Source: Eggerthellales bacterium (GTDB taxonomy: Bacteria; Actinomycetota; Coriobacteriia; Coriobacteriales; Eggerthellaceae). Taken from it: DNA of 64,000 nt. Made by a program: the position numbers and the translations under genes. This document shows positions 59,214 through 64,000 of the stretch, in pieces; the stretch's first letter is position 1, and each line of letters begins with the position of its first letter. The notes under the pieces were generated by a model, which ran no database searches, had not been told where the DNA came from, and saw only the letters and a program-made list of their open reading frames with translations. The stretch lies in contig JAQXVU010000048.1 of assembly GCA_029225085.1 (NCBI GenBank), forward strand, positions 1 through 64,000, given 5' to 3'.

Positions 59214-59777
59214 TTGGATAGGGAAAAGATTGAACAGGGCGTGCGCCTGATTCTTGAAGGTGTGGGAGAGGACCCCAACCGTGAGGGCTTGCTGAAGACC
59301 CCTGAGCGCGTGGCGAAGATGTACGAGGAGTGCTTTGCAGGTCTTACTGAAGACCCTGCTCAGTTCTTTGAGACCACCTTCGATGAGGGTCATGAGGAGA
59401 TGGTGCTGGTGCGCAACATCCCCTTCTACTCTATGTGCGAGCATCACCTGGCACCCTTCTTCGGTGTGGCCCATGTGGCCTACATCCCCGCAGCGGACGG
59501 TCGCATCTGCGGTCTGTCGAAGTTGGCGCGCCTGGTAGATTGCTATGCCAAGCGCCCTCAGGTGCAGGAGCGCCTTACCACGCAGGTTGCCGATACCTTG
59601 GTAGAGCAGCTGAGCCCACGGGGCGTCATCGTGGTTATCGAAGCAGAGCATCTGTGCATGAGCATGCGCGGCATTAAGAAGCCCGGTTCTCGCACCACCA
59701 CCAGCGCGGTTCGCGGCTCTTTCAGGAGCAATCAGGCCACTCGCGCTGAGGCTCTGTCTCTCATCTTCGCTCATTAG
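59214..59777 (+). CDS. folE: GTP cyclohydrolase I (TTG start)
   Basis: A 187-aa enzyme converting GTP to dihydroneopterin triphosphate for folate synthesis. Zinc ligands are in [13 protein letters not shown] and [31 protein letters not shown] is the family signature. The start is TTG with GAAAGGG seven bases upstream, and no in-frame ATG exists near it. The ACT protein follows closely, then menaquinone genes. Confidence 0.95.
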
Positions 59778-60134: not shown

Positions 60135-61499
60135 ATGACCAAGATCTATTCGTATACCACGAGCATCGAGGCTAACGTCCTCGATGCTTTTTGCTGTTTG
60201 CAGGGCATGTTCGGGGATCAGTTCGTGTACTACGACAAGGCTTCCGATGCCCGCAGACTGGGCTTGGGCCGTTGCGTGGCCCTGCCATCCCTGCGCAATC
60301 TCGACGTGCAGACGCAGGGAGAGTTCGCTGAGGACCCGGTGTTCTTCAGCTTCAACCGCTTCGATGCCGACAACCCCAAGCCCGCCGATGACCTTATGAG
60401 CAGCTTCCCCCGCTTGCTCTACATGCTGCCCGAGGTGGTGCTGTTGGTGCGGGAGGGCCAGACCTTCCTGCAGGTGAACAGCCTGGGCCCCGTGTCCGAG
60501 AGGCGTGCTGAGCGTTTCTGCCGTGAGGCCTGCAAGGGCTCGGCTCCCGTACCCGCCCAGGTTCCCTATGAGCTTGAAGAGGACTCTTATGAGGAGTGGG
60601 AGGCCATGGTAGAAGGCGCCCTGTCCCAGATTCGGGAGGGCAAGCTGCATAAGGTGGTGCTGTCCCGCAGGCGGAAGGTGAGGTTTGACGACCCTGGCCT
60701 TTCCTCGGTCGATGCGCTGCTGAACCTGGTGGCCAGTCCCGCAAACGGCACGGTGTTCCTGTACCGCTATGACGACGTGTTCTTCTGCGGTTGCACCCCG
60801 GAGCTGTTGGTGCGCAAGGTGGGCGACGAGGTGCAGACCATGTGCCTGGCGGGTACCTGTCCCTCCTCTCCTGACCCTGATAAGCGCGCTGCCCTGGGTC
60901 AGGCGCTGCTGCGCGATCAGAAGAATCTGGCTGAGCATGCCTTCGTGGTCGATTTCATCTCTCATGTGGTGTCCCGTCTCTGCTACGACGTGGAAATCCC
61001 CGCATCTCCCCAGCTGAAGGAGCTGCCTCAGCTGCAGCATCTCTGCACGCCGGTGCAGGGCAAGATCATGAGCGGCCGCACTTTGTCCGAGCTGGCCAAC
61101 CAGCTGCATCCCACCCCTGCCCTTTCTGGTTCACCGGTGGGTCAGGCTATGATGGCCCTGCGTCAGCTCGAGCCCTATAACCGCGGATTCTTCGGCGGCA
61201 CCGCTGGCTTCGTGAACGCCTCTGGTGACGGTGAGTTCGTGGTCACCATCAGAAGCGGCGTCTTCGATGGGGAAGAGGGCTACATCTACGCGGGATGCGG
61301 CATTGTGGAAGGCAGCGTGCCTGCCGATGAGTACCAGGAGACGAACCTGAAGATGCGCACGGTGGTGGATGCCTTCGGCGGCGGATCTTCGGACGGTGTG
61401 GTACCGCGAGACGGCGCGGCGCTTCAAAATGATACAGAGCTTTGCCACGGCGCAGAGCCCTGTTGCGGTGCCGAGCCCGCTGTGAAGGAAGGGGAGTAG
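60135..61499 (+). CDS. menF: isochorismate synthase with Cys/Gly-rich tail
   Basis: A 454-aa chorismate-utilising enzyme making isochorismate for menaquinone. Family segments are KLHKVVLSRRRKV, CLAGTCPSSPDPDKR, LHPTPALSGSPVGQA, RGFFGGTAGFV and YAGCGIVEGSVPADEYQET. The last 40 or so residues are low-complexity, including two CHGAEP/CCGAEP hexapeptides encoded by 18-bp units (61443-61478). It is one base from menD, so the unit is coupled. Confidence 0.94.
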   Translation: MTKIYSYTTSIEANVLDAFCCLQGMFGDQFVYYDKASDARRLGLGRCVALPSLRNLDVQTQGEFAEDPVFFSFNRFDADNPKPADDLMSSFPRLLYMLPEVVLLVREGQTFLQVNSLGPVSERRAERFCREACKGSAPVPAQVPYELEEDSYEEWEAMVEGALSQIREGKLHKVVLSRRRKVRFDDPGLSSVDALLNLVASPANGTVFLYRYDDVFFCGCTPELLVRKVGDEVQTMCLAGTCPSSPDPDKRAALGQALLRDQKNLAEHAFVVDFISHVVSRLCYDVEIPASPQLKELPQLQHLCTPVQGKIMSGRTLSELANQLHPTPALSGSPVGQAMMALRQLEPYNRGFFGGTAGFVNASGDGEFVVTIRSGVFDGEEGYIYAGCGIVEGSVPADEYQETNLKMRTVVDAFGGGSSDGVVPRDGAALQNDTELCHGAEPCCGAEPAVKEGE

Positions 61500-61500
61500 C

Positions 61501-63342
61501 GTGGCTGATGTGTGGGATGGGGCGGTAGAGCCCCTGCAGGTACAGAAGGAAGCCCTTACCCCAGGTCAGGAGTTGGCTCTGTACGTGTCGGCCTTCTTCG
61601 ACGAGCTCCGTCGCTGCGGCGTGCGGGAAGTGGTGGTGTGCCCGGGTTCCCGTTCCACTCCGCTTTCCATCGTGGCGTATAAGAGCCCCATGAACGTCTT
61701 CGTCGACGTTGACGAGCGAGGTGCTGCATTTCTGGCGTTGGGCATGGCCAAGGCCTACGGACGCCCTGTGGCGGTGATCTGCACCTCCGGTACGGCGGTG
61801 GGCAATATGCTTCCCGCAGTGATGGAAGCCCAGAGCTCCCGCGTCCCCCTGATCATCCTCAGCGGCAACAGGCCCCCGGTGCTGCAGGGAGTGGGCGCGC
61901 CCCAGACCTGCGACCAGCAGAAGATCTTCGGCGACTACGTGTCCCTGTATCGTCAGATGCCCTTGCCCTCCGCCGATGAGCGCACCATCGCCTATGCGCG
62001 CCAGATGGCCATGGAGGCCACCTCTGCAGCGGCAGGCGCTCATGACTCCAGCTTCGGAGCCAATGGCGGTTCTCTGGTAGACGCCGGACCCGTGCATCTC
62101 GATTTCCCCTTCGATGAGCCCCTGAACCCGGACCTGTCAGCGCCGGGCCTGTTTAAACTGGGAGCTCGTGGCCGCACAGACAAGGACCTTCCCGGTCGCA
62201 TCGGCGCCTGGTCTGCCCTTGGCCCCCATCGTGCCGCAGACATCCTGCGCTATCTGGAAGGCAAGCGGGTCGCCGTGGTTTGCGGCGAGCGCACCATTGC
62301 CGGTGGCGGCCAGGTGGAAGAGCTGCTGAAGTGGGCTACCCACATGAACTATCCCCTGCTGGCGGACCCTCTGTCTCGCCTTCGGGTCTTCGATGAGTCG
62401 GTGGTCATCGATAACTACGACTCTATTTTGGCAACTGACGACATTCCCGCTGTCGACGTGCTTATCCGCTTCGGACGCTGGCCCGTCTCGAAGCGCCTCA
62501 CCACCTGGGTGCAGAAGACGAACCCGGTGCAGATCGTGGTAGACCCTCGGGAGACCAGGGATTTCACCTGCTCGACGGACATCTTCGTGCGCACCACCCC
62601 CATCGGCTTCGTGAGCGCCTTGGCTCAGGCCGAGAAGTCCCTGAAGCGCACGGGAGAGGGCAAGGGAGCTCAGGCTGCCTGCCTGCATGAGTGGGACGAG
62701 GCCAATCGCCGTGCGTTGGGCCGCATCATGAAGGTGGGCGCTCTGAACGAGGGCTTCGAAGGCGTCTTCATTCAGGAGACCATTCGCCAGCTCCCCGAGG
62801 GCTCCCTGCTGTTCTGCGGCAACAGCATGACCATCCGCGGGGTCGATACCTTCTATACGAAGAGGGAGAAGCCTCTGGCCGTGTTGTGCAACAGGGGCCT
62901 AAACGGCATCGATGGCACCCTTTCCACTGCTATTGGCGCAGCTCAGGCCTTCCCTCAGACGGCAGTGCTGGTGGGCGATCTGTCCTTTTTGCACGACCTG
63001 AACGCCTTGGCGCTGCAGGGGGAGATGCTCATTCGGCAGCAAGAGGGCTATGTGATGCCCAGCATTGTGGTAGTGTGCCTGAACAACGGCGGCGGTGCCA
63101 TTTTCGACATGCTGCCTCAGAAGACGGAGGACCCCTATTACGCTCGCCTGTTCTACACCCCTCAGCAGATGAAGGTGTCAGGGGCTGCCGAGACCTTCGG
63201 GTTGCCCTATCGCCAGGCCGCTACCAGGCAGGAGTACGTGGCTGCCTGGGAGGACTTGCGGGGCGTGCCGGGCTTGTCTGTCATCGAGGTGACCTTGCCC
63301 TTGCAGGGCGTGAAGGATCGCTTCGCTCCGTATTGGGGATAA
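61501..63342 (+). CDS. menD: SEPHCHC synthase MenD
   Basis: A 613-aa thiamine-diphosphate enzyme joining isochorismate and 2-oxoglutarate for menaquinone. CPGSRSTPLSIVAY, the cofactor Glu region DERGAAFLALGMAKAYG, and the ThDP-binding GDLSFLHDLNAL with NNGGGAIFDMLPQ are visible. GTG 61501 follows the menF stop directly, with AAGGAAGGGGAG upstream. Its 2-oxoglutarate substrate could come from the icd/acnA pair. Confidence 0.96.
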   Translation: MADVWDGAVEPLQVQKEALTPGQELALYVSAFFDELRRCGVREVVVCPGSRSTPLSIVAYKSPMNVFVDVDERGAAFLALGMAKAYGRPVAVICTSGTAVGNMLPAVMEAQSSRVPLIILSGNRPPVLQGVGAPQTCDQQKIFGDYVSLYRQMPLPSADERTIAYARQMAMEATSAAAGAHDSSFGANGGSLVDAGPVHLDFPFDEPLNPDLSAPGLFKLGARGRTDKDLPGRIGAWSALGPHRAADILRYLEGKRVAVVCGERTIAGGGQVEELLKWATHMNYPLLADPLSRLRVFDESVVIDNYDSILATDDIPAVDVLIRFGRWPVSKRLTTWVQKTNPVQIVVDPRETRDFTCSTDIFVRTTPIGFVSALAQAEKSLKRTGEGKGAQAACLHEWDEANRRALGRIMKVGALNEGFEGVFIQETIRQLPEGSLLFCGNSMTIRGVDTFYTKREKPLAVLCNRGLNGIDGTLSTAIGAAQAFPQTAVLVGDLSFLHDLNALALQGEMLIRQQEGYVMPSIVVVCLNNGGGAIFDMLPQKTEDPYYARLFYTPQQMKVSGAAETFGLPYRQAATRQEYVAAWEDLRGVPGLSVIEVTLPLQGVKDRFAPYWG

Positions 63343-63382
63343 GCGGGGCGCGAACCCCTACATATATAAGGAGTAGATTTCA

Positions 63383-64000
63383 GTGGATTACTACGAGACG
63401 GTAGATGCGGCCAACAAGGCCAACGAGAGCGAGTTCGGCTACGAGACCTTCGTGCCCTACTTCGACGAGGAAGAGGACGAGTGCTGCCACGGTGACCATC
63501 ATCACCACCACCATCATGACGGTGAGTGCTGCGGCGGCCACGACGACGGCTGCTGCCATGATGGCGAGTGCGACGAGTGCGATGACGAGTGCTGCGGCGG
63601 CCACGACGACGGTGAGTGCTGTGGAAGGCATCGCCATTGGCATAACCCCGCCTTCGCCACCTTCACCTTCGCCCATGAGGGCGCCAACTATTTCGTACGT
63701 CGTTGGGGCAAGCCCGGTGATGTGCCCGTCCTGATGCTGCATGGCTTCATGCAGACCGGCGACAGCTGGTGGCAGATCGCTCCCGCCATCGCTCAGGACC
63801 GCTGCGTCTACGCCATGGATCTTCTGGGCCACGGCAAGTCTGACAAGCCCGCTGACGTCTCCGCCTATTCTCTTGAAGGAGCCGCTGCTGCGGCTCATGC
63901 CCTGATCAGGGAGGTCATTCAGCCCGAGGCCGAGGCGGCGAACCCCGGTCGCAAGCACAAGGTGCATCTGGTGGGCTACTCTCTGGGCGGTCGCGTTGCC
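63383..64000 (+). CDS. menH: MenH-like alpha/beta hydrolase with Cys/His-rich insertion, 3' end cut by window
   Basis: The first 206 codons of an open frame running off the window. GTG 63383 follows AAGGAG (63368-63373). Residues 95-206 match an alpha/beta hydrolase: oxyanion LMLHGFMQTGDSW, DLLGHGKSDKP, and nucleophile elbow VGYSLGGRVA with Ser200. Position after menF-menD suggests MenH. Residues 32-87, however, form an acidic metal-binding-like insert with 12 Cys (mostly CC pairs) and 14 His, including seven in a row (39-45), built on ECCGGHDDG repeats. Normal MenH has no such region. Confidence 0.85.
   Translation, partial: MDYYETVDAANKANESEFGYETFVPYFDEEEDECCHGDHHHHHHHDGECCGGHDDGCCHDGECDECDDECCGGHDDGECCGRHRHWHNPAFATFTFAHEGANYFVRRWGKPGDVPVLMLHGFMQTGDSWWQIAPAIAQDRCVYAMDLLGHGKSDKPADVSAYSLEGAAAAAHALIREVIQPEAEAANPGRKHKVHLVGYSLGGRVA
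63524..63612 (+). repeat. 26-bp exact direct repeat in the Cys/His region
   Basis: The 26 bases at 63524-63549 recur exactly at 63587-63612, 63 bp (21 codons) apart. Both encode ECCGGHDD, showing the region grew by in-frame duplication. Confidence 0.9.

Follow-up and report, generated by a model that had tools for sequence, protein, structure and literature searches.

The window, by which we mean the whole 64,000-nucleotide stretch of DNA analyzed here (positions 1 to 64000 of contig C48 in an assembly of 1.93 Mb), ends within a set of menaquinone biosynthesis genes (Table 1). Its last gene, menH, runs past the window end, and the contig sequence beyond supplies the 3' end that was missing when the gene was first read: menH is a complete gene of 381 amino acids. 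The gene for MenB begins 12 bp farther on, with a menE-menC fusion behind it, making menF-menD-menH-menB-menE/C a complete late menaquinone operon. The fusion is a single open reading frame both here (L010:10385-13021, 878 amino acids, after the window end) and in a relative (L171:3087-5810, 907 amino acids) whose MenH is tailed too and that likewise has folE upstream of its men genes. The 5' portion of menH encodes a stretch rich in cysteine and histidine, referred to below as the tail. No start codon occurs between codons 24 and 114 of menH, and from codon 114 onward the sequence lies inside the hydrolase fold, meaning that a whole hydrolase can be made only if the tail is translated too. 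A downstream start leaving the tail untranslated is thereby ruled out.

Table 1. Features of the menaquinone locus at the 3' end of the window
Feature	Position	Strand	Basis
folE, GTP cyclohydrolase I, upstream neighbor	59214..59777	+	TIGR00063 8.8e-74
menF-type isochorismate synthase	60135..61499	+	TIGR00543 9.5e-85
menD, 40 bp 5' of menH	61501..63342	+	TIGR00173 1.8e-114
Shine-Dalgarno AAGGAG, 9 nt 5' of GTG start of menH	63368..63373	+	Sequence
menH with N-terminal Cys/His-rich extension	63383..64000, on to 64528, window-equivalent (L010:8384-9529)	+	ORF, TIGR03695, PDB matches
Acidic leader of MenH, residues 1-33, without Cys or His	63383..63481	+	Translation
Cys/His-rich tail of MenH, residues 34-87	63482..63643	+	Composition, DNA repeat period 21
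Alpha/beta-hydrolase domain start, ~residue 93	63659..64000	+	Homology
Nucleophile Ser200 codon of MenH, in GYSLGGR	63980-63982	+	Homology/alignment

Residues 32 to 87 of MenH (DECCHGDHHHHHHHDGECCGGHDDGCCHDGECDECDDECCGGHDDGECCGRHRHWH) form the acidic Cys/His-rich block that the sequence-only reading had described: its 56 residues include 12 Cys, 14 His, 11 Asp, 6 Glu, and 10 Gly, with the cysteines arranged as five CC pairs plus two single residues, seven histidines in a row, and the sequence ECCGGHDDG occurring twice. With 26 Cys plus His, it is the richest of 43,834 overlapping 56-residue stretches in the six frames of the window, the next best open reading frame reaching 17, and the underlying DNA is itself repetitive with a period of 21. 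Homology to alpha/beta hydrolases begins only near residue 93 to 115, after the block, which is therefore an N-terminal extension and not, as had been proposed, an insert in the hydrolase. Compared with PDB sequences, the tail matched only artificial His tags and chance sequences, and a scan of GTDB contigs with the window-truncated MenH returned only distant hydrolases.

Is the carrier still a working MenH, the 2-succinyl-6-hydroxy-2,4-cyclohexadiene-1-carboxylate (SHCHC) synthase, which eliminates pyruvate from SEPHCHC? Its best NCBIfam match by far is TIGR03695 (MenH), full length with 182.9 bits and an E value of 7e-54, but below the curated cutoff of 208.55, so the name rests on active-site residues and operon. 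The closest PDB matches of the hydrolase are MenH of Staphylococcus aureus (2XMZ) and of Escherichia coli (4MYD/4MXD), and the catalytic triad Ser200, Asp331, and His355 aligns with S86, D210, and H232 of the E. coli enzyme. Ten residues are invariant in known MenHs, namely, the triad plus Y85, R90, R124, D128, W147, R168, and K212, in an account of the enzyme that makes no mention of any metal (PMC3630204). Eight of them stand at the aligned columns of the window protein (Y199, S200, R204, W261, R286, D331, K333, and H355), while the R124 column holds Val and the D128 column Asn. None of 46 family sequences has Arg at the R124 column, most having it three columns later, and Asn at the D128 column recurs in 13 of 41 untailed relatives. 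Since the relatives also differ at these columns, both deviations may be traits of the lineage or come from a shift in the alignment. The men neighbors on both sides, the triad, and the homology agree with the first identification of a MenH-like enzyme with an intact hydrolase part, and residues, operon, and homology together suggest that the window protein is an ordinary MenH of its lineage.

MenH-like matches were found in 78 of 138 genomes of the family, and the N terminus was read in 46 sequences. Five of these 46 carry a Cys/His-rich N-terminal extension: the window's MenH, three MenHs of genus g45 (L013-L015, MSEHECTCGHDHDHDHDHECECGHDHHHEHEH...), and one of genus g4 (L016, MHNHTCGCGHHEGDAGCGSHEHHHGEACACGNHHDAP...). 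The alignment with relatives that had been suggested thus yielded four MenHs from two other genera tailed at the same place. In a tree of the hydrolase cores, the five tailed MenHs form one clade, set off by a branch supported at 98/95, which amounts to one change. When a profile of the tailed MenHs was searched against 398 genomes of the class, those five were the only proteins whose match began at the first profile positions. Confinement of the tail to one MenH clade indicates that a MenH can do without it. A second genome of genus g4 (G016; the tailed one is G015) encodes an untailed, divergent MenH-like protein on a very long branch (L172:5890-6804, minus strand), whose place in the tree is unsure; it may be paralogous or have replaced the original gene.

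The genomic setting is conserved along with the tail. In G015, the one relative read through, the gene order is the same as here (exoIII, folE, menF, menD, menH, menB, menE/C) with a MazG-type gene inserted, and G128 has menF, menD, and menH in order. The tail itself has drifted: its motif is CxCGHDHDH in the relatives versus CCGGHDDG in the window MenH, only composition being kept between genera. Layout varies as well, with a leader of 33 residues in the window MenH and none in the relatives and with a linker of ~75 residues in g45. The MenHs of that genus (L168-L170) show an extra conserved region between tail and hydrolase, at residues ~36 to 115 (GLGWEGVCPCGCGGVGHHVD...AWRAWVNAEP.TYEEFQQGYAFD), which has another Cys/His cluster and is absent from the window MenH.

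Codons of the tail were compared among the three g45 sequences (~30 codons, three overlapping and hence not independent pairs summed). Cys/His columns were kept in 44 cases and lost in 2, silent changes having occurred in 14 of the 44, and the other columns showed replacements in 11 of 43 cases. Cys and His are thus kept while spacers and length vary, a trend that points to selection on these two residues in this genus; the direction is clear, though the sample is small.

How widespread are tails of this type in the family? The codon pattern for C-x-C-G-H-x-H gave 172 matches in the 138 family genomes versus 38 for a reversed control. Carriers were read from 40 matches hand-picked for promise, some of them out of frame or due to chance, a selection that carries no frequencies. 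Several carriers are metal handlers: an FKBP/SlyD-type protein ending in CGCGHHH (L195), heavy-metal-type P-type ATPases (L152 and L196), a CobW protein (L158), and a member of the ArsP_2 heavy-metal exporter family (L198). C-terminal tails of the CGCGHDH type also occur on a NAD-binding protein resembling 6PGDH and 3-hydroxyisobutyrate dehydrogenase in many genera (L149, L154-L157, L159-L161, L189-L192, and L194) and, mostly in genus g41, on glucosamine-6-phosphate deaminase NagB (L164-L167, L199, and L204) and rhodanese (L151, L163, and L200-L203). Two large proteins have a Cys/His-rich stretch that is N terminal in one (L148) and internal in the other (L205), the latter ending in a SEC-C motif. 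Open-licence literature yielded no earlier report of C-x-C-G-H-x-H tails on such enzymes and nothing relevant on His-rich proteins of Eggerthella, NagB with His-rich ends, or MenH with metal. The type of tail is already known; its place on one MenH clade and its spread over housekeeping enzymes were not found in that literature.

The genome of the window was surveyed, non-exhaustively, for further tails by sequence pattern. It encodes a second tailed protein (L052:6146-6946, minus strand, on contig C66), which ends in CEDDGCCGGHHHDEDRECCGGHHHDEDHECCGGHGHGRGHGHGKCCEE, a tail of 45 residues of the ECCGGHHHDED type. This protein is related to QueE (TIGR03963, 7.8e-19) and its gene lies among queD, queE, queC, and queF of a queuosine operon, but it has no CxxxCxxC radical-SAM motif, whereas the true QueE of the same operon does; it may be a pseudo-enzyme that now carries metal, or it may work together with the true QueE. 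Matches to it in the relatives are QueE homologues of ordinary length, judged by score. The CCGGH pattern (TGYTGYGGNGGNCAY) occurs about once per genome in the family, close to chance, but of its 7 matches in the genome of the window, 5 fall in the tails of MenH and the QueE-like protein. The HxHxHxHxH pattern was discarded as a tail marker, its matches being off frame or due to chance. A four-His pattern matched 72 times in the same genome, and the 20 stretches opened contained no further convincing tail, with one dense match in a putative 171-residue frame (L258). The SlyD-like FKBP and the HypB of this genome have no such Cys/His tail, nor is the N terminus of HypB His rich.

To our knowledge, natural metal-binding ends have been described mainly on chaperones, GTPases, and transporters. 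The unstructured tail of E. coli SlyD, rich in Cys, His, Asp, and Glu, helps that protein to bind up to seven Ni(II) ions, which is interpreted as a form of storage, and the Kd of H. pylori SlyD for Ni or Zn is a few micromolar (PMC7055735). His stretches of COG0523 proteins, UreG, and HypB have been taken to store metal or to act in metal chaperoning (PMC2770081). The likeness to natural metallochaperone tails noted at the outset holds, and the reading we favor, with moderate confidence, is that menH encodes a working enzyme with a metal-buffering tail of the SlyD type, one of a family-wide set of such tails. By analogy with SlyD, COG0523, UreG, and HypB, the tail would bind several soft divalent ions; it would probably be disordered and would act as a metal buffer or store carried on a constitutively made cytosolic enzyme. 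The lack of such tails on the SlyD-like FKBP and HypB of this genome is suggestive, though only that, of a shift of this role from these proteins to other carriers. Several carriers (QueE-like, NagB, rhodanese, and NAD-binding proteins) have no evident connection with metal, which leaves room for a nonmetal role: such tails may serve solubility, degradation signaling, or protein contacts.

A broader form of the metal-buffering reading is possible, although we regard it as doubtful: interchangeable Cys/His tails on MenH, QueE-like, NagB, rhodanese, and 6PGDH-like proteins might together replace or supplement metallothionein and the usual SlyD and HypB tails, forming a distributed metal buffer, and might let metal state modulate the carriers. 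If a quinone-pathway enzyme in one clade and several housekeeping enzymes across the family do bear metal-binding ends, the storing of metal could be shared out among many metabolic proteins. In practice, the tailed proteins are probably also natural His-tag contaminants.

The sequence-only reading had itself proposed a link between menaquinone synthesis and metal supply. In that case the tail would regulate MenH in response to metal, with metal loading altering the activity or assembly of this SHCHC synthase and so governing menaquinone output. Retention of the tail at one gene in three genera, with the operon place conserved, is in line with such a role, and nickel binding reversibly inhibits the PPIase activity of SlyD (PMC7055735), an example of a tail affecting the enzyme that bears it. 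The great variation of tail length and layout between genera, however, is unlike a tuned allosteric device. MenH is, as far as we know, not a metal-using enzyme, in keeping with the account of its invariant residues cited above. Tails of the same type occur on many proteins unrelated to menaquinone, including a QueE-like protein without the cluster motif, which weakens the link between menaquinone and metal; a general metal-binding module fits better, and regulation of MenH seems unlikely.

Might the tail have no metal function at all and be a repeat-expanded, acidic, low-complexity sequence that is nearly neutral or retained because it aids solubility? The tails of menH and the QueE-like gene share DNA stretches of 17 to 23 bp, which, with the repeats in the DNA, show slippage-type growth, and most MenHs have no tail. 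Yet Cys and His, costly and reactive residues, are kept in g45 while other residues change, solubility needs Asp, Glu, and Gly but not 12 cysteines, and the same ligand pattern recurs on metal transport proteins. Taken together, these points make a tail free of any metal function rather improbable.

The tail could also be a metallochaperone module for a specific client, such as the zinc enzyme FolE, whose gene lies two genes upstream of menF, or the nickel pathway of hydrogenase. The position of folE upstream of the men genes in both the window and G015 agrees with the former, the presence in the genome of a HypB without a His-rich N terminus with the latter. The tailed QueE-like gene adjoins queD and queC, whose products are zinc enzymes. 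His stretches on G3E GTPases, read as chaperone function, are found where other chaperones lack them (PMC2770081). Gene neighbors are weak evidence, however, the protein shows neither a known client nor an interaction domain, and a MenH would be a strange choice for delivering metal, all of which makes this reading improbable.

An artefact, be it an assembly or frameshift error or a miscalled start, is scarcely conceivable: the genome is fragmented into 91 contigs and the comparison set includes no second genome of the window's genus, but the gene is in frame over all 381 amino acids behind a good Shine-Dalgarno sequence, and the tail, whose absence from all close relatives would have pointed to such an error, is present in independent orthologues from four other genomes, which rules it out.

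Set beside known systems, the window protein shares with characterized MenHs (4MYD/4MXD and 2XMZ) the fold, by homology, the triad, the equivalents of Tyr85, Arg90, Trp147, Arg168, and Lys212, and the men operon; it differs in its N-terminal extension of ~90 residues and in lacking, at the aligned columns and as in its relatives, the Arg124 and Asp128 equivalents. The tails of the C-x-C-G-H-x-H type on 6PGDH-like, NagB, rhodanese, and QueE-like proteins match the MenH tail in residue make-up, lineage, and terminal place, but their carriers differ and they are mostly C terminal. The C-terminal metal-binding tails of SlyD in E. coli and H. pylori have the same make-up rich in Cys, His, Asp, Glu, and Gly, presumably unstructured, on a folded enzyme domain, and the MenH tail is likewise a terminal, low-complexity Cys/His/Asp/Glu-rich stretch, with 17 Asp or Glu among its 56 residues. 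The likeness is one of composition only, the MenH tail being N terminal on an alpha/beta hydrolase, and the protein is not a SlyD, for which it would need an FKBP PPIase domain. Nor is it a G3E GTPase like CobW, HypB, or UreG, as it has no Pfam match to a P-loop GTPase domain. The His-rich ends of HypB, UreG, COG0523 (CobW) proteins, the H. pylori GroES HspA, and mycobacterial GroEL1, which have been connected with Ni, Zn, or Cu (PMC2770081, PMC10170517, PMC8779794), are likewise natural low-complexity ends on proteins with another primary function, but these are chaperones or GTPases, whereas MenH is a biosynthetic enzyme. In its high Cys content, the MenH tail stands nearer to SlyD or metallothionein than to the His-rich ends of those GTPases and chaperones.
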